Origin: Puniceicoccales bacterium
Lineage (GTDB): Bacteria > Verrucomicrobiota > Verrucomicrobiia > Opitutales > JAIRKQ01
Length of the DNA stretch: 44,945 bases
Assembly: GCA_031283685.1 (NCBI GenBank)
Contig: JAITBI010000027.1
Span: forward strand, 1 to 44,945
Direction of reading: 5' to 3'
Below the pieces are notes generated by a model. It had not been told where the DNA came from, did no database searches, and saw only the letters and a program-made list of their open reading frames with translations. Below are positions 12,759-44,745 of the stretch, one piece after another; position 1 is the first letter of the stretch; each line of letters begins with the position of its first letter. The translations under genes and the position numbers were made by a program.

Positions 12759-14651
12759 TTGTTGGCGCATATGCCTAAGTGTGTTCTGCGATTGTTGTGC
12801 ATCGTGTGTGGTAGTATTGTTACGTTTGTAATGCCTTCCCGCAGACGACTTGTGCTGTCAAATTTATATCACGCTTTCCCCAGCCGAAGTGCACTCTGGC
12901 GCAGAAAGGTTTGTCGAGAAAACTTTTTCCGTCTCATAGAGCTTGGTTTGTTAAGCATTGCTGGAAACTTTCTCAGTAAAAAAAGGATAAAGGCAGATTT
13001 TAAATTAAGCAAAGAATATAAAACGGTCATTAATCAAATCCTAACTGGGAAACAGGGAGCCATTATTCTGGTTCCCCACTTCACTCTAATGGAGAGTATG
13101 ACACTTTTGCCAAAAATCGTAGATGACGTCGATTGGCCCGAAGTGGGCGTTGTTTATCGACCATTTGATAACCGATCACTGGAAAAGTTTATAAAGCATA
13201 CCCGTGAAGGATGTGGGATGAAATTGGTTTCCCGGAAAAAAGGAATATTTGAAGCGATGCAGATTCTAAAAAATAAAGGAATAGTATCGTTACTATTTGA
13301 TCAAAATGCCGGCGATAGCGGCCATCGCATGATATTTTTCAATCGGCTAATTGCATCAACGGACCTCCCAGCTTTGCTATATCAAAAGTTTAAAGCGCCT
13401 GTTTATTTCCTATATCCCAGGAGAGTTGGCTTTTGGGAAGCAAACATTAAGATCAAAAGACTAAATTTTGATGAAAATGACCCTAAAACAATCCTATTTG
13501 CTGCAAATAGACACTTGGAAGAAATTCTGAAGGCCAATGAAAGTGTCTGTTCCGACTGGCTATGGGCTCATGATAGGTGGAAAGTGGCAGCCTATGGCAC
13601 AAAAAATTTAGCAAAACGGAGGTGCGAATGGTTATCACAGTCTCAAAAGTACCTGAAAATCAAGCCCGAAGAAGTAGTAAATCTTCACGTTATGGTACGT
13701 ATGCCGAATTGGTTGGGGGATATCATCATGGCGGTAGCCGTGTTACGGACGCTAAAACATTATCGTCCCGATATGGAATTAATCCTGATTTGCCAGGAAC
13801 AGTTCGTCGATTTTCTTGCCGCATTGAAAATTGCAGACAAGGTAGTACAATTGCCCGAGAAAAATTTTAAATATTTTCTTAATATTCTAAAAATTAAAGA
13901 GGTTTACCCATACCCGGATGTTTATGCTTCGCTTGTTAACTCATTGCGCGGCGATATTGAAGCGATTTTAATGGGTGCTCCAAAAAGGATAGGAACAGAT
14001 TCCCAAAATAGATCCTATAGAAAAATTTTTATAAATAACTTGTATGAAAACAATGCTGATACTGAATCTCTACATCAAACAAAATTATGGAAAAATGCAT
14101 TGAATGAATTTGGTATTGAGTGTGAAGATAACCTTTCTCCATTTAAATTGTGTACAGATATAAGTATTGTTTCAAAAGCCAAACGTACGATCGGAGTAGT
14201 GTGTGGATCCATCAATACCCCCCGCAAACGGTGGCCTGCAAAATCTTGGAGAATTTTAATCGAAAGAATTCATGGAATATATAAAGACGTGCATGTGAAT
14301 CTGTATGGCACGAAAGCCGATGTCATGTTTATCGATGAAATTGCTCTTTTTCTCAATCGGGAAAGGATTTCAAACTTGGCTGGTAAAACGAACATACTCG
14401 AACTAGCAAGTTATGTGCAAAGGGATGCCCTGGTAATCGCCATTGACACCGGGGGCATGCATCTGGCCAGCATGTTCGGTCGTCCATTGATTTGCATATA
14501 CGGTGCCACCAATGCCCTTGTTACCGGGCCAATATTTGATTCCGACAAGATAATCGTCATGCCTGACGGTTGTCCTCAAAATGGTGGCTTCCCGACGGAA
14601 GATATCAGCATAGAATCTGTCTTCAGGGCCATTCAACTAATGCTAAAATAA
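12759..14651 (+). CDS. Fusion: LpxL-type acyltransferase + GT9 glycosyltransferase
   Basis: The 630 residues form two enzymes in one chain. Residues 1-300 are a lipid A-type (LpxL/HtrB family, LPLAT fold) acyltransferase with the catalytic H-X4-E motif at His107-Glu112 (HFTLME) and the family's DQNAG block near 181. Residues 309-630 are a glycosyltransferase family 9 domain resembling heptosyltransferases, with MVRMPNWLGD at 311-321, PRKRWPAKSW and the donor-site region DTGGMHLASMFGRPL. Its likely role is late acylation and core-sugar addition in lipooligosaccharide assembly at the inner membrane. The start is uncertain: TTG 12759, TTG 12762 or ATG 12771. The frame stays open and hydrophobic back to a stop at 12720. 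No other lipid A gene is adjacent; lpxB is at the far end of the window. Confidence 0.85.
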   Translation: MLAHMPKCVLRLLCIVCGSIVTFVMPSRRRLVLSNLYHAFPSRSALWRRKVCRENFFRLIELGLLSIAGNFLSKKRIKADFKLSKEYKTVINQILTGKQGAIILVPHFTLMESMTLLPKIVDDVDWPEVGVVYRPFDNRSLEKFIKHTREGCGMKLVSRKKGIFEAMQILKNKGIVSLLFDQNAGDSGHRMIFFNRLIASTDLPALLYQKFKAPVYFLYPRRVGFWEANIKIKRLNFDENDPKTILFAANRHLEEILKANESVCSDWLWAHDRWKVAAYGTKNLAKRRCEWLSQSQKYLKIKPEEVVNLHVMVRMPNWLGDIIMAVAVLRTLKHYRPDMELILICQEQFVDFLAALKIADKVVQLPEKNFKYFLNILKIKEVYPYPDVYASLVNSLRGDIEAILMGAPKRIGTDSQNRSYRKIFINNLYENNADTESLHQTKLWKNALNEFGIECEDNLSPFKLCTDISIVSKAKRTIGVVCGSINTPRKRWPAKSWRILIERIHGIYKDVHVNLYGTKADVMFIDEIALFLNRERISNLAGKTNILELASYVQRDALVIAIDTGGMHLASMFGRPLICIYGATNALVTGPIFDSDKIIVMPDGCPQNGGFPTEDISIESVFRAIQLMLK

Positions 14652-17947: not shown

Positions 17948-18856
17948 CTAAGGGGCAATTTCATAGGAAATTTTTCTATATAGTGCCGCACTCTTTTTAT
18001 TATTCTGTACAAGCTTTGGAGGAATGTCTAGAAACTCTATTACTAGTAAAAATGTCGACGCCAGACATTCCAATATTTGATTGGGATTATTTTTTACTAG
18101 CTTGAATGTATAATTTGGATGTATCGAAATTTGTCTAAAGATGATGGGAATTTCACTTTCATATAAATTTTTGAGAAAATTTCTGAAAGAATCGGTAAAT
18201 GTTGTAAATTTTATCTTGTAAAGATATGACTTACTGTCCCTCATTTGCCTAACATCAGGAGAAAATATATCACCGTTTTCAAAGTAGTTAGAATGTGGAA
18301 GATCTTCACGTTCAACGGATATAATTTTTAGATAAGAGGTTCGCGATTCTAGTAAGTAAGAAATGAGTAATCTGAGCTGTTCTTGTTGGCGGTGAATATC
18401 ATAAATCTCACTGAGTAAAGGTTGTTCGTTTTTTTCGAAAAAATCCCTAAAACCAAAGGAACAAGTGGGCTCAAATTCCACACCCAGCGCATCGCAAGAT
18501 TCCCGTGCCCACGTTAGGTACTCTGATATTTCAAAAAATACTGCTATATGGTTGGGGGGTAAACTGCGAGAATTACTAGCATGCGCTAATTTTGACATAT
18601 TTTCCCAGGTTTTTGATGCAAATTTTCTATACTGAATCACATCTGCTTTGAATTGTCGTTCTTTTTCAAAATGGTCATGGGGTAGCTTCGACTGTTTAAT
18701 ACCTAGGGAGCTTGTTAGGGCTGTAACACTTTCCTTTTGTAAAATTTTATTGCGATAGGCATGGAAGCAATTTCTCATAATTAAGATCTGGCACACCGCT
18801 AGTATGATGATAGTAGCGAAAAACAAGCAATGACGTTTAAAGAAAAGTTTTTTCAT
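17948..18856 (-). CDS. PilO-like inner-membrane protein, Amuc_1100-type architecture
   Basis: The 302 residues begin with a short positive N-terminus and one membrane helix (about 9-29), then a coiled-coil stretch and periplasmic alpha/beta domains. The segment with LTWARESCDALGVEFEPTCS resembles a region of the Akkermansia muciniphila pilus-locus protein Amuc_1100 as I recall it, where a cysteine-containing helix leads into a strand. The order of helix, long loop and second ferredoxin-like domain also agrees. PilO proteins form the inner-membrane alignment complex with PilM and PilN. Its start overlaps the stop of the PilM-PilN gene by four bases (ATGA), so the two are translationally coupled. 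The similarity is by eye only; overall identity is low. Confidence 0.65.
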   Translation of the reverse strand: MKKLFFKRHCLFFATIIILAVCQILIMRNCFHAYRNKILQKESVTALTSSLGIKQSKLPHDHFEKERQFKADVIQYRKFASKTWENMSKLAHASNSRSLPPNHIAVFFEISEYLTWARESCDALGVEFEPTCSFGFRDFFEKNEQPLLSEIYDIHRQQEQLRLLISYLLESRTSYLKIISVEREDLPHSNYFENGDIFSPDVRQMRDSKSYLYKIKFTTFTDSFRNFLKNLYESEIPIIFRQISIHPNYTFKLVKNNPNQILECLASTFLLVIEFLDIPPKLVQNNKKSAALYRKISYEIAP

Positions 18857-20454
18857 CTTACGAGAATTTCAGATTGTTGCCCTAGTATTATATCAAACGA
18901 AAAAGGTAAAATATCACCATTTACCAGTGACATTTGTATGTTCGCAATGTGATCGATTCCCCTTATTTCACCCAACGACGATATCAATTCTTCGATGATT
19001 TTGTTGATTAATTTTTTTGTTTCACCATCACCGATCCATATTTTCGCTGAAACTTCAACCTTGTTATTGCCATTGTCATCCTTTTTGTCTGCCCATGTGA
19101 ACGATTCTATCCAGGCAGTTTTCAAGTTCTCCATTTTACATTGGACTTCGTTGAATAAATCTGCCCAAGCAGCTTGAGAATACAGGGATAATTTAGCATT
19201 CGTGATAAATGAGCGCAAAACTTCATATTCTTCGTGGACTTCTTCATACCTGACAATATCCGCGTTAACTTCAAGCAATTTTGCTTCCAGTCGCCATTTT
19301 TTGGTTTCAAGATTTATCGCGTCTTTTTTTAATATTTTTAATCCCGTTAATAATGCTAACGTCATGACGATAAAAATAAGTAAATACCCAAAATTTTGAC
19401 GCTGGAATTCCACTTGGCTTGAAAAATCTACGGAAAACAGCTTCAACGGTTGCACTTGTTTAGAAACCAAACAATACACTGCCCCAACAAATACACCTAT
19501 ATTATTTTTTACGAGCATTATCTCTTCTTCGCGCAGATTACATGCAAATTTGTGCTTAAAAGTATCAAACATGTCGATAATTTCCATATCTTTTGCGGTA
19601 TTGAATGCATCGTACAGGTGGCTTTCACTCCCTGTCAGGTACAACTTTTTTATCGGATGCTGCTTCAAGGTTCTGCAGTAAAACAGTTCAGATTTTTTAA
19701 TTTCCTGGCGCAATTTTTGAGAAAATTGTTTTAGGTAGTAGGTCATGAATGCACGATTTTCACCTTCCTGATTGCTAGAAAATTTCGAAAGCAAAAGTTT
19801 AGCCTTTTCAAAAGATACTTTTTGCGATTCTGCAATCGTTTTAATTAGCTGTATTCCCGTAATAGGTACACTACGAAAGTATTCCGCGCCATTCCCAATG
19901 CACGCTAAATATGATGAATTTTCTCCCACATGTACCAGCATGGAATTCATTGGAGAATCGGCATATTTCTGAATGGCGATGGTATTGAGCACTATTTCCG
20001 GACAAATATATGAAAAATCTATTTTATTGCGAATCAGGATATCAACTATTTGTTCCGATACTGCCCTCGGAATGGCAACCCCAAGAGCATGATTTGATTG
20101 ATCATTGTCCCAATAAATATCCAAACACCACTCCCTGGTCCCTCCAGGGAAATTATGTTCACACTCAAATTTAAATGCTTCCTGAATACTTTTTTCCGTT
20201 ACTTCTGGAATTTGAATGTGCTTTATAAAAACTTGGTCGTTGGGCGGAACGATTAGCGTTATTCTTTTTTTCATCGCTTTTGGGATTTGAGATACCGCTT
20301 TTGCAAAAGCCTGTAACCAACCTTCGACATTTTCCTTGCAATCTTCTTCAGACTGGATTGCGTAGGATTCCACTTTTACGAAAATTCCCTGGCCATCGAC
20401 TTCCATTAGCGTGATCGATTCCATACCGCAATACATTATGACATTATTAGCCAT
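18853..20454 (-). CDS. PilM-PilN fusion, type IV pilus/T2SS alignment complex
   Basis: The 533 residues fuse two components normally separate. Residues 1-330 resemble PilM, an actin-like cytoplasmic protein, including a segment like its nucleotide-binding region (SMLVHVGENSSYLACIGNG, 171-189) and LYLTGSESHL near 271. Residues 355-374 are a single membrane helix, followed by a coiled coil (about 378-415) and a periplasmic ferredoxin-like domain, as in PilN. GspL of type II secretion has the same overall layout, so this could serve either machine. It follows two Bat-like relics by 69 bases and is coupled to the PilO-like gene. No pilus ATPase, platform or secretin gene is in the window. Confidence 0.72.
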   Translation of the reverse strand: MANNVIMYCGMESITLMEVDGQGIFVKVESYAIQSEEDCKENVEGWLQAFAKAVSQIPKAMKKRITLIVPPNDQVFIKHIQIPEVTEKSIQEAFKFECEHNFPGGTREWCLDIYWDNDQSNHALGVAIPRAVSEQIVDILIRNKIDFSYICPEIVLNTIAIQKYADSPMNSMLVHVGENSSYLACIGNGAEYFRSVPITGIQLIKTIAESQKVSFEKAKLLLSKFSSNQEGENRAFMTYYLKQFSQKLRQEIKKSELFYCRTLKQHPIKKLYLTGSESHLYDAFNTAKDMEIIDMFDTFKHKFACNLREEEIMLVKNNIGVFVGAVYCLVSKQVQPLKLFSVDFSSQVEFQRQNFGYLLIFIVMTLALLTGLKILKKDAINLETKKWRLEAKLLEVNADIVRYEEVHEEYEVLRSFITNAKLSLYSQAAWADLFNEVQCKMENLKTAWIESFTWADKKDDNGNNKVEVSAKIWIGDGETKKLINKIIEELISSLGEIRGIDHIANIQMSLVNGDILPFSFDIILGQQSEILVR

Positions 20455-20523
20455 TTTTTATGAATTTTATGCGAATTGATAAACTTTTCAAGCTATCTTG
20501 CAATGATTCTTATTTCAACACCT

Positions 20524-20898
20524 TCAAGCATGGGGCGATTTTTTGTCGACGTAATGGTTTTTAGCATGTTTCCTGGCTGAAACCAATTGTTCGACAATGA
20601 GTAAAATAATCAAAAATTTTGTCAAATCCCGACTTGTGCTGATTTTTAGCATAAAGTTTCCTGTTTTTCTGTCTCCTACCAATAGAAGAGAATATATGCA
20701 CGAAATGACCACACAAAGCAATACTTTGATTTTGAAATTCACGCCGCTAAAGTTTGATAAAATTTTACCCTGCATCTTTTCATCCGATAAAATTTTCAAT
20801 TTTTTATTCCTATGGTATAGGCTATAAATAAATAATAGGGCGACACAAAATGGTGCCATCAGCGCGGCTAGAAAAACCTTAATATCGGCGAAAACCAT
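20524..20898 (-). CDS. BatB-like membrane protein lacking its vWA domain
   Basis: The 124 residues consist of an N-terminal membrane helix (about 7-27), a basic linker (LYHRNKKLKILSDEKM), a second helix (about 57-75) and a third near the C-terminus (about 91-106) ending in basic residues. This is the start and end of a BatB/vWA-type Bat protein, whose normal layout is two helices, a vWA domain of about 200 residues and a last helix. Here the second helix runs through LLLVGDRKTG almost directly into the last one. No leftover vWA sequence lies in any frame. It starts 3 bases after the batA-like stop. The function is unknown; it may be a scaffold or a decaying gene. Confidence 0.5.
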   Translation of the reverse strand: MVFADIKVFLAALMAPFCVALLFIYSLYHRNKKLKILSDEKMQGKILSNFSGVNFKIKVLLCVVISCIYSLLLVGDRKTGNFMLKISTSRDLTKFLIILLIVEQLVSARKHAKNHYVDKKSPHA

Positions 20899-20901
20899 AG
20901 G

Positions 20902-21240
20902 TTACGGAATTTTTTGAAGGAAGGTGTTGCGCAAAAACATTTCCAAGAGAAAACATATCAGGCTTGCCACTACTAGATAATAGCTACATCGTATTATAAA
21001 TGTTTCCATAATAACCATTGGTTCCGCATATGCTAATAATAATAGCAGTACCGCAAGTATTCTATAATGAATGAGAGAATTTCCGGAAGGTTTTATATTC
21101 ACTCCAATGATTTTTTTCAGTAGTGATCCATCGGGAATTACAATGGACGGTTGACGAACATGTTTGCGATAAATACCTTTGAAAATCGGTAAAAACAATA
21201 AATACAATAGGATATGAGGGTATAAAAAAATTATGTTCAT
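20902..21240 (-). CDS. BatA-like membrane protein lacking its vWA domain
   Basis: The 112 residues start with a membrane helix, then a segment QPSIVIPDGSLLKKI that resembles the short strand ahead of the second helix in BatA proteins, then HYRILAVLLLLLAYAEP, which matches the family's second helix ending in ARP. The chain then goes straight to a C-terminal helix ending LLEMFLRNTFLQKIP, which closely matches the typical BatA tail (LLLE..LRRT.LR.LP). The metal-binding vWA domain that normally lies between is absent. It is the first gene of the minus-strand run to the PilO-like gene. The same batA-then-batB order is found in normal Bat operons, which supports the identification. Confidence 0.55.
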   Translation of the reverse strand: MNIIFLYPHILLYLLFLPIFKGIYRKHVRQPSIVIPDGSLLKKIIGVNIKPSGNSLIHYRILAVLLLLLAYAEPMVIMETFIIRCSYYLVVASLICFLLEMFLRNTFLQKIP

Positions 21241-24872: not shown

Positions 24873-26450
24873 ATGTCAGCCGAAGGAGATAATATTACGG
24901 ATTTGAGTGAGTTGGAAAATTTCTCATTTCAACCGAAGTGGGAGAAACAAAAGATAGAAGACTTTTCCTATCCACATGCGAAAAATAATGAAAAAAGCTT
25001 TCGCGGGCCAAGGTATGTCTCCGATGGCGCAGGCTCTAAAAAAAATCCTTGGCAAGAGAGAAAGGAAAGGAAGAATTTCCCTCAGGGTGGTTCTCGTCCC
25101 CAAAGGTTTGACAGGTCAGGTAGGAATAGATATGGTAGAAAATTGACAAAGACTCAAAACCTTTATCGACCTTTCGACCCGATAGTTGATGTCGAATTTT
25201 ACCCCAATGATACGGGTTTTGATGCCATAATATCTGCCCTGAAGTCTACCCATAAGACCTATGAATTATTTTCCGTGGCAAAGCTATTTCTAGAAAAGCC
25301 GGAACGATTTGCGATGGTGGTAAAGAAAAAAAGTACCCAGGAAGATAAATATCTTTATTTGACTACCGACGACAATTTCATTTTTGAAACAGCAAATGAA
25401 GCGATTGACCACGTAGTAGAAAATTACGCGGGGAAATATTTTGACATCGAAGAACAGGAAGTTCCTCCACCCACAGGAAAGTTTATCTGTTTGCACAAGT
25501 GTGGCATGACGGGCAAGGTTTTGGGCCCGCCGAATTACCACAAATATCAAGAAATTTTGGTGACGCACCACGATAGATTCTTGCCGCGCGTTCCTTTCGA
25601 AAAGTTTAAAGCGAGAATAGAAAAAATTACATCCGAAGAAGAAATAGAAAACTGGAAAGTTCAGTCTTCCAAGGTGCAAATTTTCAGGCCTAAAAGGCAA
25701 GAAGACTCCGTCGAAAAAATAGAGTTAAAATCTACGGGCGAGGTAAAGAAATATTTCATCGAACATCTCAAGGATCAAGCTATTACCAGCTATGATTCGG
25801 TGCGGGTTCCCGGTGAAACCTTCGATAGGATGCCGAAAAGTTTATTGAGCAAGTCAATCTTTGTCCTAATTAGCAGAGAAAAATCTTTTCCACTGAACTT
25901 TGCGAATAATTTGCGGGGACGTCTGGGACGTTCCGGTTTCATAATCTATAAAATTGGTAGCAAATCTGGTATCAGCTATGTTTCCGGAATTAGGCGTAAG
26001 TTTAGGCGGCCCGGAGATGTTTTCACGGATGATGTTCAGAAAATTATCACCATCATAGATGCTAATCCCAAAATTTTCATCACATCCCTATGTCTACAGT
26101 ACACACAAGGATGTCTTGGAACTCTTTCCGATGGTCTCGAAAAAGGAAGCGATCAAGCGTCAATGTCTGCTTCGACATCCCAAGAAACCTCAAGTGACAC
26201 GGAAAGCGTAGCAGTGTCCCCTTTGAACTCTCCCCAAAAATCCGTAGGTCAGGAATTTTTCAAAAATTTACACTGGTTGATCCGCGAAGGATATGTCATA
26301 GAATTTGAGGATGGCACACTGGTTTCTACCGAAATAATCGCACAGAAAGAACAGCCAAAGATAGAGGCGGAAGCGGAGTCAAAAGTTGTTGCAGAATCAG
26401 CAAATGAAGATGTGGGGAACAAATCCACAGAGGCCAGCGAAAAAGTTTAG
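24873..26450 (+). CDS. Conserved hypothetical protein, Opitutales-type
   Basis: The 525 residues divide into a polar, basic N-terminus (1-100) rich in Arg, Lys and Gly (RKNFPQGGSRPQRFDRSGR), which could bind nucleic acid, and a long central region (100-400). The central region includes DVEFYPNDTGFDAIISALKS, a LFLEKPERF motif, CGMTGKVLGPPNYHKYQEIL and a GRLGRSGFIIYKIGSKSGISY motif. A Ser/Thr-rich spacer (430-455) leads to HWLIREGYVIEFEDGTLV and an acidic tail. I recall proteins of this plan, annotated only as hypothetical, in Opitutaceae. No function is assigned. Its stop codon shares bases with the convergent pseudopilin gene. Confidence 0.75.
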   Translation: MSAEGDNITDLSELENFSFQPKWEKQKIEDFSYPHAKNNEKSFRGPRYVSDGAGSKKNPWQERKERKNFPQGGSRPQRFDRSGRNRYGRKLTKTQNLYRPFDPIVDVEFYPNDTGFDAIISALKSTHKTYELFSVAKLFLEKPERFAMVVKKKSTQEDKYLYLTTDDNFIFETANEAIDHVVENYAGKYFDIEEQEVPPPTGKFICLHKCGMTGKVLGPPNYHKYQEILVTHHDRFLPRVPFEKFKARIEKITSEEEIENWKVQSSKVQIFRPKRQEDSVEKIELKSTGEVKKYFIEHLKDQAITSYDSVRVPGETFDRMPKSLLSKSIFVLISREKSFPLNFANNLRGRLGRSGFIIYKIGSKSGISYVSGIRRKFRRPGDVFTDDVQKIITIIDANPKIFITSLCLQYTQGCLGTLSDGLEKGSDQASMSASTSQETSSDTESVAVSPLNSPQKSVGQEFFKNLHWLIREGYVIEFEDGTLVSTEIIAQKEQPKIEAEAESKVVAESANEDVGNKSTEASEKV

Positions 26451-26800
26451 GGAATATACTCATACAGGTGTGTTACGATCTCTCGGGATAGGCCGGGATA
26501 TTTTTTTATGGTGAGTGTCCAAAGCTGGAGATTAGATTTTACAGACTGCGCCTGGCATGTTGCTTCAAAATGTGCATTCGGATCAAACAAACAATGGACT
26601 TGCTTTTCAGACCGCAGATCTTGCCTATGAGTCATGCAATTATCTATGTCTGCTATTAGGGCAACAGCCGTTTGATCAACCCTTGGCACGGTTGCATGTT
26701 CCATAAAACATTTTATCATGGCCAACATAGCAGTCGTAAAAAGCATAATTGCACATAAGACTTCAATCAAAGAAAAAGCTTTTCGATTGCCGGGTTTCAT
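26447..26800 (-). CDS. Type II secretion/pilus pseudopilin, GspI-like
   Basis: The 117 residues begin with a short basic leader (MKPGNRKA) and the class III signal FSLIEVLCAIMLF, with Glu at +5 of the mature protein. The residue before the cleavage point is Ala, where most prepilins have Gly. The rest is short with two cysteines. Its size, EVL motif and position after G- and H-like genes suggest the minor pseudopilin I. It starts 5 bases after the H-like stop. No J or K gene follows; the next gene is convergent and overlaps the stop. Confidence 0.7.
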   Translation of the reverse strand: MKPGNRKAFSLIEVLCAIMLFTTAMLAMIKCFMEHATVPRVDQTAVALIADIDNCMTHRQDLRSEKQVHCLFDPNAHFEATCQAQSVKSNLQLWTLTIKKYPGLSREIVTHLYEYIP

Positions 26801-26805
26801 CTCTT

Positions 26806-27324
26806 TTATCTATATACTTGCGTTTGTGCATTTGTGTCGACGGTGATATAGCATTCTTGGCCATCAAGCAAAAATCTCAACTGGAAAGGGGGGGAAAATT
26901 TTTCTTCGAAAATCACTTTCTCTTGTGGTATATTGCCAGCTTGAAAGGAATTCTTTGGTAAGTTTGAGCTCCTACAATTCGAAGGAAAGTTTACCAACTT
27001 ACATTCCGAAATTCTCGAATCTAGCCTTTTGCTATATTTTTTCTCCAAGTAGTAGTAGTCGCGATTTTTTTTGACTTCTAATTCTTTTCCCCCTTCCAAA
27101 GTAAGAATGGCCGGAGCCTTGTATACGCCTAGTGCTCCTGAAGCCATAGAATGTAATCTTGCTAGAAATACAGCTTCAGAAAGAGCAACCTTTGTCCTAT
27201 AAACAACATCATCCTTGGATCTAAATGGCTTAATGGCAAAGCAGGCCGCAAACGCCCCCATTAGCGCTAGGATAAATATTAACTCTACCAGGCTGAATCC
27301 TAGCCGTTGTCTGTTTCCTCCCAT
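26806..27324 (-). CDS. Type II secretion/pilus pseudopilin, GspH-like
   Basis: From ATG 27324 the protein has 172 residues with a nine-residue leader (MGGNRQRLG) followed by FSLVELIFILALMGAF, the class III prepilin signal with Glu+5. A longer frame reaching 27423 overlaps the G-like gene and puts extra residues ahead of the leader, so I reject it. The globular part contains YRTKVALSEAVFLARLHSMAS, typical of the H pseudopilin helix region, and a C-terminal beta-rich part ending in VDTNAQTQVYR. It is second in the G-H-I run. Confidence 0.72.
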   Translation of the reverse strand: MGGNRQRLGFSLVELIFILALMGAFAACFAIKPFRSKDDVVYRTKVALSEAVFLARLHSMASGALGVYKAPAILTLEGGKELEVKKNRDYYYLEKKYSKRLDSRISECKLVNFPSNCRSSNLPKNSFQAGNIPQEKVIFEEKFSPPFQLRFLLDGQECYITVDTNAQTQVYR

Positions 27325-27394
27325 GACATTTTTTGATAAAACACCAAAAGCACCTGGTATTAAATAATTTTCGAACTTATCACCGACCCAAAAA

Positions 27395-27781
27395 TTATGG
27401 AATATATGGCGCCAAATCAACAACGACAGGGTTGACTAAATTGGCTGCTCCACTGCTTTTATCGACCTCGATTGTTACTGTTTTACCGCTCACAGCGAAC
27501 TCATATGCTTTACCAAAAGCATCGTTTATATCACCCAATCCAAGGGCTGTAGCTGTCAGATCAGTTGTAGAATCAGGTACTTTGCCAAGCAATGAAGCTT
27601 TTGAAATGATAGCTGTTTTGATCCGTCCCGTCATATCTATTTTCGTTTGATTGACTAGAGCTGCGTTACGTCCACCCATTGTGCCTTTTGTAAGCATGGC
27701 AACTATACCTGCCAAAATCACGAGAACAATCAGTATTTCTACCAGTGTAAAACCACGACTTTTTTTATTTAAAATATTCAT
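27395..27781 (-). CDS. Major pseudopilin, GspG-like
   Basis: From ATG 27781 the protein has 128 residues: the leader MNILNKKSRG, then FTLVEILIVLVILAGIVAML, a classical prepilin helix with Glu+5. The C-terminal part has DAFGKAYEFAVSGKTVTIEV, which corresponds to the D-x-W/F-G-x-x-Y-x-Y segment of GspG. Sixteen further in-frame bases up to 27820 overlap the end of ispG and would place residues before the leader. The G pseudopilin forms the body of the periplasmic pseudopilus. It follows ispG closely and may share its transcript. Confidence 0.8.
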   Translation of the reverse strand: MNILNKKSRGFTLVEILIVLVILAGIVAMLTKGTMGGRNAALVNQTKIDMTGRIKTAIISKASLLGKVPDSTTDLTATALGLGDINDAFGKAYEFAVSGKTVTIEVDKSSGAANLVNPVVVDLAPYIP

Positions 27782-27806
27782 AGTGAATGAATATTGTATG
27801 GGATAG

Positions 27807-28970
27807 TTATACTCTGTCAAGTTTTAATCGACAAATTTTTGTTAAATTTTTACAGATTTCTTTCCACGAAACATTTTTCAGGACACAATTCTTATTTTGA
27901 TATAGGGACAGGGTGCCATTTGGACTGCCAATAATTGCAAAATCGGCATCCCCCGCTTCCCCTAGGCCGTTGACCATACATCCCATCACAGCGATCTTCA
28001 AATTTTTAGCACTTGGCAGTTTTTCTAATTGTGTTCTGAGTTTTCCAAGAACGGACTGAATGTCATAGGATGTGCGACCGCAGGATGGACATGCGATGAA
28101 TTCTATGCCATAACGCCTCGCCCCACACCCTTGCAAAATGTTCTTTGCGACCTCTATTTCCCTGGTTGGATCTTCCGTCAACGAAACCCGAAGTGTGTCC
28201 CCGATGCCATCCATCAGAAGGCACCCTATGCCAATTGCTGATTTTATGCGGGCGTAATCCCCATTGCCAGACTCCGTAACCCCGAGATGAATAGGGTAAT
28301 AGCTTCCCATTTCATCGAGCTTGGAACAAGCTAGGCGATTGGCAGCTATCATTTTTTTTGCATCGCTGGCTTTAAACGAAAGAATGATGTTTTCAAATTG
28401 AACTTCCCGGGCCACCTCCAGGCACTCCTTGGCACTTTCCCACATGGCAACGTCCCCATGCCCAAATTTATAAACTATACGTGGAGCCAAAGACCCATGA
28501 TTAATTCCGATCCGCACGGATTTTTTTAAATCTTTTGCCTTTTGGAAAAATTTGCCCAAGGATTTTTGCAATTTGTTTTTCCCCACGAAGAATTCATCAT
28601 CCACAAACGATTTGGGTCCCATTAACCTGTCGGAAAAATTTCCTGCATTTATGCGAACCTTATCGGCCACTTCCAGGCAGTCCAAAGCAATGGCTGGAGA
28701 AAAATGCACATCGGCTACCATGGGGATTGGAATGTTCTTGGCCCGTAGAATTTTTCTGATTTCAGCGAAAAACTTTACATCCTCTAGGTTCGTTACCGCT
28801 AGCCGAATAATTTCACACCCACCTTCGAACAATTCACAGATTTGCCTCACATTGCCTTCCACGTTTTTCGTGGGAATATTCGTCATCGATTGGATACTAA
28901 TGTCATTGTTTCCACCAACACCAACATGGCCGATAACCACTTCCTTCGTTTGCCTACGTTTAGCGATCAT
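27807..28970 (-). CDS. ispG: 4-hydroxy-3-methylbut-2-en-1-yl diphosphate synthase
   Basis: IspG converts MEcPP to HMBPP in the MEP pathway using a [4Fe-4S] cluster. The 387 residues comprise the N-terminal TIM-barrel (GGNNDISIQSMTNI; MVADVHFSP; VRINAGNF) and the C-terminal cluster domain with the cysteine motifs CPSCGRT and GCMVNGLGEAGDAD. It is the compact two-domain form without a plant-type insertion. The start overlaps the rseP stop by 11 bases, indicating coupling. The reductant (ferredoxin or flavodoxin) is not encoded nearby. Confidence 0.97.
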   Translation of the reverse strand: MIAKRRQTKEVVIGHVGVGGNNDISIQSMTNIPTKNVEGNVRQICELFEGGCEIIRLAVTNLEDVKFFAEIRKILRAKNIPIPMVADVHFSPAIALDCLEVADKVRINAGNFSDRLMGPKSFVDDEFFVGKNKLQKSLGKFFQKAKDLKKSVRIGINHGSLAPRIVYKFGHGDVAMWESAKECLEVAREVQFENIILSFKASDAKKMIAANRLACSKLDEMGSYYPIHLGVTESGNGDYARIKSAIGIGCLLMDGIGDTLRVSLTEDPTREIEVAKNILQGCGARRYGIEFIACPSCGRTSYDIQSVLGKLRTQLEKLPSAKNLKIAVMGCMVNGLGEAGDADFAIIGSPNGTLSLYQNKNCVLKNVSWKEICKNLTKICRLKLDRV

Positions 28971-42659: not shown

Positions 42660-43481
42660 TTATTTAAAAAATTTAAAAAGAAATTCCATCGCAGAATTTT
42701 GGGTATTGATTGGGGAAATTTTTATCCCAATATTTTCCACATCTTTAAAAATTAATTTTTGGTAAGCGGCGTATTTGGTTTCTATCCTAGACATCGTTTC
42801 AGTATCATTGGTGTCAATTTCGAAAATTTCGCTGGTCTCCGAATCTTCGACCGTAATTCTACCAAGCTGCGCCAACAACATGTCGTTGTTATCCACTATC
42901 GGAAGTATCATTACATCATGCCTTGACTTCAAAATGTGTAGCTGGGCTAATATTGCCTTTCTACCGACGGTCAAAGCAAACGTATCACAAATCAAAATAA
43001 CCCTAGAGCGCTTGGTTAATACTTTGTTCAGGAATTTCAAGGCAACTAACAAATCTGTCCGTAGCTTTTCCTGCGAATGAACTATTTTGTCGATTGCGTA
43101 TTGGAAACACTGAACACGCCGCCGTGGCGGAAAATATTTTTCCACTCCACTGGAAAACATAAGACAACCCACCCTGTCGTTATTTTTTTCCGACAACCGG
43201 AATAGGGTCTTTAAAATATCCATGGCCAATGAAATTTTCGGCTGCCTTTTGGTTCCAAACTTGATGGATTCGCTGACATCCAATGCAAAAATGATGTCAT
43301 TTCCGCTATCGGCACAAATATTGTTCACGGACAAAGCATTGGTTTTTGCAGTGATATGCCAATTTATGAGACGGATGTCATCCCCTGCCACATACTCCCT
43401 AGCATCGGCCAATACAATACCACTTGGATAAAAGAACTTGCGATACAGTTTCGAAAGTACGTTTTTAGTCCACAAAGTCAT
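42660..43481 (-). CDS. DUF58 domain protein with vWA-like fold
   Basis: From ATG 43481 the protein has 273 residues; a TTG at 43487 adds two. The DUF58 signature is at 28-41 (REYVAGDDIRLINW; the family usually has IDW, here Asn). It is followed by FALDVSESIKFG, which keeps the D-x-S-x-S metal site of vWA domains. DUF58 proteins normally stand in MoxR-DUF58-BatA-BatB operons, where the MoxR ATPase and vWA proteins act together. Here it is apart from the Bat-like relics (20524-21240), and no moxR gene is in the window. It starts 10 bases after the lpxB stop, so they are likely cotranscribed. Confidence 0.82.
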   Translation of the reverse strand: MTLWTKNVLSKLYRKFFYPSGIVLADAREYVAGDDIRLINWHITAKTNALSVNNICADSGNDIIFALDVSESIKFGTKRQPKISLAMDILKTLFRLSEKNNDRVGCLMFSSGVEKYFPPRRRVQCFQYAIDKIVHSQEKLRTDLLVALKFLNKVLTKRSRVILICDTFALTVGRKAILAQLHILKSRHDVMILPIVDNNDMLLAQLGRITVEDSETSEIFEIDTNDTETMSRIETKYAAYQKLIFKDVENIGIKISPINTQNSAMEFLFKFFK

Positions 43482-43491
43482 AGCCAATTAC

Positions 43492-44745
43492 CTATTCAAT
43501 CGCCGACAGTAACCATTTGGCAACGGACATATCTTTTCCCGCGGATAGTATTTTTTCCAACTCCTTCGAAACCTTCCGCAATGGATGTTGAAGCTTTTCG
43601 TCGTCGATATATGGTAAAATATACTTTGCAACAGATTTTGGTTTCAATTGGGATTGTATAAATTCCCGCCACACGCATCGATTTAGTAAAATATTTGCAA
43701 TGCCCAAATGTTTTACATTTACTAACATTTTTCCCATAACATAGGTCAATGGATGAGTTTTATACACAATGGCACCAGGAATACCCTTCAGACAACATTT
43801 GAGAGACATGGTGCCCGAACTCATGATGGCGGCACACACATCAATGCTATCCCCGTCGGGTACGAATGTTATTTTATCTAACAGCTTTGAAAATCTCCTA
43901 TTTAAAATTTTTCGCAGGATAGCCAATATCGTTTCATCGGGATATACCACAATTGCCGTACATTCACTCCTATGTTTCAAAATTTCATTGAAACTATCTA
44001 ACAGTAAGGGGAAAATTTTTTTAACGGCAGGACACCTGCTGCCAGGAAGTAGCAAAACTGGTCCCCTAGGGTTGTAGGTAATATTTAACTTGTAAGAATC
44101 TGCTACAAAAGGATGGCCCACAAAACTGACGTCCAGATTGGTTTTCTTAAACCAATCTTTTTCAAAAGGGAAAATCGTTGCCATTTTATCGACAAATTTT
44201 GCCATTTTATAGCATCGCTTTGGTTTCCATGCCCAAATTTGTGGTGATATGTAATAGAGAACTTTTATATCCCCACCGGCTTTTTGAGAAAGCTTGCCGT
44301 CGAAGAGCATTTGGGCCAGCCGAATGTTGAAACCCGGGTAATCTATAAGACAAACGGCACGGGGATGATTGCTTTTGATCCAAAAAAATACCTGCTTTAT
44401 CAGTTTCGTAAAGAAGAAAAAATTCCGCAAAACTTCGTACAAACCAACCACTGAAAACTTTGTCATGTCTAAAATAACATCGGCTCCAGCGTCCCTAAGA
44501 GCGCTCCCTCCAAATGCCACAACATTGATACCGGGACGTATTTTTTTAATCTCTACCAGCATTTCTGCCGCATGCTGGTCGCCCGAATGTTCTCCTGCTA
44601 TGATAACTAAATCTACTTTCTTCCCTATGTGGGATTCTAGGTCAAATTTTGAATTCTTCACCTGTGGGGCAGAGTAAAATGAGCCAAACGGTTTTGTCAA
44701 ATCATATGGGAAAATACGCGCCAATTCCTGTTTAATACTTTCCAC
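43492..44745 (-). CDS. lpxB: Lipid-A-disaccharide synthase
   Basis: LpxB joins UDP-diacylglucosamine to lipid X in lipid A synthesis at the inner membrane. The 417 residues contain AGEHSGDQHAAEML (50-63), KFSVVGLYEVL, the LIDYPGFNIRLA block, YYISPQIWAWK and LLLPGSR. The first 45 residues are an extra N-terminal segment compared with E. coli LpxB. The start is GTG at 44745, overlapping the upstream frame by 14 bases. It is the only lpx gene in the window apart from the acyltransferase fusion, and it proves an LPS-type outer membrane. Confidence 0.95.
   Translation of the reverse strand: MESIKQELARIFPYDLTKPFGSFYSAPQVKNSKFDLESHIGKKVDLVIIAGEHSGDQHAAEMLVEIKKIRPGINVVAFGGSALRDAGADVILDMTKFSVVGLYEVLRNFFFFTKLIKQVFFWIKSNHPRAVCLIDYPGFNIRLAQMLFDGKLSQKAGGDIKVLYYISPQIWAWKPKRCYKMAKFVDKMATIFPFEKDWFKKTNLDVSFVGHPFVADSYKLNITYNPRGPVLLLPGSRCPAVKKIFPLLLDSFNEILKHRSECTAIVVYPDETILAILRKILNRRFSKLLDKITFVPDGDSIDVCAAIMSSGTMSLKCCLKGIPGAIVYKTHPLTYVMGKMLVNVKHLGIANILLNRCVWREFIQSQLKPKSVAKYILPYIDDEKLQHPLRKVSKELEKILSAGKDMSVAKWLLSAIE

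Follow-up and report, generated by a model that had tools for sequence, protein, structure and literature searches.

The window, the whole stretch of 44,945 nucleotides that was analysed, makes up contig C29 of a genome (G000) of 782 kb that is 89% complete. It contains four minus-strand open reading frames that follow each other with gaps of 3 and 69 bases and then a 4-base overlap, in agreement with an earlier note on this DNA. ORF1 (20902..21240) encodes mini-BatA, a protein of 112 aa composed of BatA helices 1-2, the C-terminal helix and an LRNTxLQKIP tail, with the vWA domain deleted. ORF2 (20524..20898) encodes mini-BatB (124 aa), in which the BatB membrane helices and a charged cytosolic loop are present and vWA and TPR are deleted. 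The neighbouring genes, outside the Bat set, encode an Amuc_1101-like PilM-PilN fusion of 533 aa (ORF3, 18853..20454) and a PilO/Amuc_1100-like periplasmic alignment protein of 302 aa (ORF4, 17948..18856). Within the gap between the two pairs a promoter-like TTGAAA-N16-TAAAAT (20464..20491, minus strand) was found, whose -10 hexamer ends 9 bases before the pilM start. Further along the window, 4 bases after lpxB, lies a minus-strand gene for a DUF58 protein with an intact MIDAS (DVSES; 42660..43487).

The best named relatives of PilMN are found in Puniceicoccales (Verrucomicrobiota) MAGs, Pcl387_bin12 (85% identity) and Nm470_bin68 (84%). Other bins of these two samples have been described as lower-termite MAGs, and the host of Nm470 is Neotermes meruensis (PMC12887300, PMC11707648). 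Comparisons were carried out within family f1, comprising genus g1 (n = 7, G000-G006, with G000 as the window's genome) and the sister genus g2 (n = 4, G007-G010). All 11 genomes, which are incomplete MAGs, have a size of 0.7-0.9 Mb, and PilMN identity across the two genera is ~36%. The f1 bacteria are probably gut symbionts with small genomes.

Truncated BatA and BatB proteins and their retention

The two small proteins had been read in the earlier note as vWA-less Bat anchors, and both profiles and alignment to full-length BatA and BatB bear this out. ORF1 matched Pfam BatA with 4e-5 and 24.4 bits, slightly below the cut-off of 25.9 that is passed by mini-BatA of G001, G002, G004 and others; the N-terminal BatA domain with its paired membrane helices is present. 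Using a profile of the ORF1 family, eight full-length BatA proteins ranked first among order-level relatives (2e-16 to 3e-8). ORF2 gave no match in Pfam; when 137 ORFs of order-level relatives were ranked with its family profile, BatB proteins came out on top (best 6e-8). Alignment of mini-BatA to full-length BatA, from which the G032 row (wrong frame) was left out, revealed an internal deletion of ~225 residues that corresponds to the vWA and joins helix 2 to helix 3. The vWA with its MIDAS, located between these helices, is absent from mini-BatA of every family member, and ORF1 is thus BatA-derived and not a full BatA. The C-terminal helix and tail are retained (LRNTFLQKIP in the window versus LKNTKLQRIP in full-length BatA of G038), and N, T and P of this motif are invariant in the family. 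An AlphaFold model of mini-BatA has three helices at low confidence (pLDDT 57). Mini-BatB likewise comprises the BatB anchors without the vWA and without the TPR that follows it.

In nearly all BatA and BatB sequences, K and R are abundant in the C-terminal tail and in the loop that connects helices 1 and 2. This places loop and tail on the cytosolic side and the vWA on the periplasmic side. Indeed, a periplasmic vWA was demonstrated experimentally for BatA of Borrelia (BB0173; helices 7-25, 57-77 and 310-328) (PMC5700661).

Mini-BatA (105-115 aa) was detected in 10 of the 11 f1 genomes over both genera, in all except G003, and never at full length. Mini-BatB adjoins it in each of these 10 genomes. 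G003 (g1, 88% complete) has the DUF58 and DUF4381-like genes, with mini-BatA, mini-BatB and a PilMN match absent. Comparison of G000, G001, G004 and G006 gave dN/dS values of 0.11-0.22 for mini-BatA and 0.20-0.31 for mini-BatB; the comparison genes pilMN, the pilO-like gene and ispH had 0.09-0.25. Both mini-Bat genes are kept under purifying selection. Retention, which the earlier note had taken as a premise, is therefore supported by the 10 of 11 genomes and the overall dN/dS range of 0.11-0.31, and the occurrence of the pair in two genera argues against decaying debris. A pseudogene reading of the mini-Bats is disfavoured on the same grounds, dN/dS and family-wide retention.

The surviving anchors could also be relics that linger without function while Bat genes are being lost from reduced genomes. 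The small genomes (0.7-0.9 Mb), the scattered genes and the somewhat faster evolution of mini-BatB (dN/dS up to 0.31) would fit such a process. However, stops and frameshifts are absent, both proteins have invariant positions, several subunits are trimmed alike, and the genes are retained family-wide over deep divergence. Moreover, G034 and G038, two other 0.9-Mb genomes of the order, keep full-length Bat proteins (BatA 343 aa; BatB 819 or 686 aa), so that small genome size alone is not the cause of the domain loss. We consider the relic explanation unlikely.

Of 236 sampled genomes of the class, 73 had a match, and G000 alone had a true mini-BatA. The only other short frame, of 161 aa in G145, was considered as a second truncated BatA outside the family and rejected, because a frameshift splits what is otherwise a full-length BatA. 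This batA gene (L152:6337-7375), from another family of the same order, lies in an otherwise complete Bat operon; the frameshift reflects either an error in sequencing or a true pseudogene. Bat proteins without a vWA were not found described in the open-access literature searched.

The remaining Bat genes of the family

The canonical operon of relatives in the order consists of MoxR, DUF58, DUF4381-like, BatA, BatB and BatD genes. The Bat genes are scattered in g1, and in the window's genome this includes MoxR, DUF58, the DUF4381-like gene and a BatD stub. A single contiguous Bat operon is absent in g1 and partial in g2 (DUF4381-like, mini-BatA, mini-BatB, BatD stub). There, a 154-aa protein, mini-BatA and mini-BatB are followed, where the contig continues, by a 152-aa protein; this is the canonical order with every gene shortened. 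Because the g1 genes are scattered, support for the set from linkage comes from g2 alone. In canonical operons BatA is preceded by a DUF4381-like gene, and the 154-aa protein matched it (3.5e-23; hhalign 99%). The DUF4381-like protein is found in 10 of the 11 family genomes and starts directly at the membrane helix; in the window's genome its gene (C39:34451-34963) runs to the contig end. The 152-aa protein aligned to the C-terminus of BatD, which canonically follows BatB (hhalign 95.5%, E 1.4e-8), a moderate profile match. With a profile from g2 alone, a BatD stub was recovered in the window's genome at 3e-9 (C11:19566-20021). BatD stubs, consisting of one membrane helix and a tail, were found in three genomes (G000, G007 and G009); none was found near MoxR in G001.

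The two cytosolic components are kept with intact ATPase and MIDAS motifs. MoxR of G000 (C11:24994-25983; Pfam AAA_3, 7.9e-64) has intact Walker motifs. In a search covering G000-G002, MoxR was present in G000 and G001, and G002 (83% complete) gave no match above the cut-off. The DUF58 protein of the window matched Pfam DUF58 (1.6e-43) and VWA_2 (1.1e-13), and it is the only VWA_2 match found in G000 in a vWA search of family genomes G000-G005 with this single Pfam model. DUF58 is present in 10 of the 11 family genomes. Its MIDAS DxSxS is intact in 8/8 aligned family members; the motif REY..GDD is degraded in g2, where the MIDAS is kept. DUF58 and lpxB are adjacent in g1 (42660-44745, minus strand, in the window). 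In G007 of g2 they lie two genes apart (L168:114-3282), an arrangement unlike that of g1.

The alignments show that the family lost the BatA vWA as well as the BatB vWA and TPR, and that the BatD-like gene was cut to one helix and a tail. The TPR of BatB, the N-terminal domains of BatD and the DUF4381-like leader are presumably periplasmic, as we assume on general grounds and from inspection of the sequences by eye. Thus all Bat parts predicted to be periplasmic (BatA vWA, BatB vWA/TPR, BatD ectodomain, DUF4381 leader) are gone, and the membrane and cytosolic parts stay.

The proximity of DUF58 to lpxB, adjacent in the window and two genes away in G007, would be in line with mini-Bats that no longer work with MoxR and have been taken over by a different envelope process, for instance one around LpxB, as small scaffolds. 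However, neither mini-Bat gene is located near lpxB, and the catalytic motifs of MoxR and the MIDAS of DUF58 are kept. Such a recruitment is improbable, slightly more so than the persistence of relics.

The adjacent pilus genes

ORF3 matched NCBIfam Amuc_1101 (3.5e-12) and NCBIfam pilM (1.2e-9) and, in the PDB, the Myxococcus PilM structure 3jc8 (8.3e-9). Its C-terminus is PilN-like, judged by position and length. ORF4 had no sequence match, and a PDB sequence search was empty. When its low-confidence model (pLDDT 55) was searched with Foldseek, the top seven matches were Amuc_1100, followed by PilO (2rjz); the modelled protein thus resembles the Amuc_1100/PilO fold. The PilM-PilN and PilO-like identities proposed earlier for the two genes hold, for ORF4 by this low-confidence model. 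Both have counterparts in the type IV pilus cluster Amuc_1098-1102 of Akkermansia, namely the PilM-like Amuc_1101 and the PilO-fold Amuc_1100. Unlike the window, that cluster has no Bat genes, and unlike in the cluster, the Pil pair of the window stands alone, and secretins and ATPases are encoded in other parts of the genome.

According to the earlier note, the Bat anchors belong to a pilus alignment operon. The Bat and Pil pairs adjoin in G000, G001, G004 and G006 only, 4 of the 10 genomes holding both pairs, so that the four-gene order is kept in one clade. In the six others (G002, G005, G007-G010) the pairs are apart, mid-contig in at least four of the six; in most of G002 and G007-G010 the contig also carries flanking genes. 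In G005, ispH-batA-batB is arranged as in the window, other genes come after batB, and pilMNO is located on a different contig.

The Bat-Pil gap of the four linked genomes measures 60-69 bases and is 86-95% identical. The hexamers TTGAAA-N16-TAAAAT are the same in all four, and the gap identity of 0.86-0.95 compares with a synonymous difference (pS) of 0.23-0.59 in neighbouring genes. Similar elements precede the unlinked pilM genes of G002 (TTGCAA-N16-TAGAAT, 9 bases before the start) and G010 (TTGATT-N16-TAAAAT, 12 bases before the start), and weaker ones occur elsewhere. In shuffled gaps a match of at least 9 of 12 occurred in ~25%, so a single match of such strength is not unusual by chance; the case for a promoter-like element of pilM is made by its conservation and not by the strength of a single match. 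Of the signals that could separate the pairs, the 69-base gap therefore has a promoter-like element, and a terminator-like site was not found in it, so that read-through into pilM may occur. Across the four linked genomes (20455-20491, minus strand, in the window), no more than 7-10 bases separate the end of the -10-like element from the start of pilM, and the pilM message may therefore be leaderless. Shine-Dalgarno-like sites are located upstream of only 6 of the 38 genes of the window.

Synteny and the promoter-like element led us to reject the pilus-operon reading: the linkage is confined to one four-genome clade, and pilM has its own promoter-like element. It is highly improbable that the vWA-less Bat proteins are co-transcribed with PilMNO and add to its alignment platform in the inner membrane. 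In favour of this model, the genes share a strand with short gaps and keep their order in four genomes, the gap shows no terminator-like site, and Bat and Pil both involve inner-membrane complexes. Against it, the two pairs are separated in six other family genomes (in at least four of them mid-contig), pilM is preceded by a conserved promoter-like element, and in g2 the Bat pair is part of a Bat operon. The mini-Bat pair tracks the other Bat genes, with which it forms one operon in g2. The pilus genes beside it are most likely just neighbours, and the case is a warning against reading function from the gene order of a single clade.

A proposed reduced Bat complex

We think it rather probable that the mini-Bats act as membrane subunits in a Bat (MoxR-vWA) complex reduced by its periplasmic half, and that the pilus genes form a separate unit. 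As no candidate vWA other than DUF58 was found, MoxR-DUF58 docked on a truncated Bat scaffold is the simplest reading. In this reduced complex, MoxR hexamers would use the DUF58 vWA as an adaptor and would dock with it on a membrane scaffold of mini-BatA, mini-BatB, the DUF4381-like protein and the BatD stub. By analogy to NorQ-NorD, ATP hydrolysis may remodel or mature a client at the membrane or at its cytosolic face. For NorQ-NorD, ATP-driven rotation of the vWA domain was proposed to remodel the membrane client (PMC13036017). The machine would face the cytosol and have no periplasmic read-out, and PilMNO would be a separate unit that came to lie downstream in one clade. Our judgement is evenly balanced on the more specific proposal that f1 runs a Bat/MoxR machine lacking the periplasmic half, in which a cytosolic MoxR-DUF58 motor works on truncated BatA, BatB, BatD and DUF4381-like anchors.

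The proposed complex shares its MoxR, DUF58, DUF4381-like, BatA and BatB components, and with the putative stub also BatD, with Bat operons that include MoxR (Bacteroides fragilis batA-E, Leptospira bat, Borrelia BB0170-BB0176 and Puniceicoccales relatives), and also the gene order in g2 and the three-helix BatA anchor with its tail. It differs from the canonical operon in that f1 has lost all predicted periplasmic Bat domains, the g1 genes are scattered and DUF58 is the only VWA_2 match found. Like NorQ-NorD and RavA-ViaA, it combines a MoxR-family ATPase with a cytosolic MIDAS-bearing vWA partner, here DUF58; unlike these, the f1 pair appears to have dedicated Bat-derived membrane anchors.

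A deletion study in Leptospira did not find the proposed role in oxidative stress and termed Bat function elusive (PMC3557215). The family offers a natural domain-deletion experiment, in which parts predicted to lie outside are gone and the inside parts are kept. If the proposal is true, the essential Bat core is cytosol-facing, and the periplasmic vWA/TPR parts are a dispensable layer for sensing or client binding. The client of MoxR-DUF58 would then be cytosolic or in the membrane, and a small set of proteins fit for reconstitution would be defined.

Two further observations concern other genes of the window. Three consecutive prepilin-like ORFs with GFTLVEILIVL-type N-termini (26447-27820, minus strand) lie just downstream of an ispG-like gene, which suggests pseudopilins, either of a type II secretion system or of a type IV pilus. 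By eye only, a 630-aa ORF at 12759-14651 (plus strand) resembles a fusion of a lipid A acyltransferase with a heptosyltransferase-like domain.
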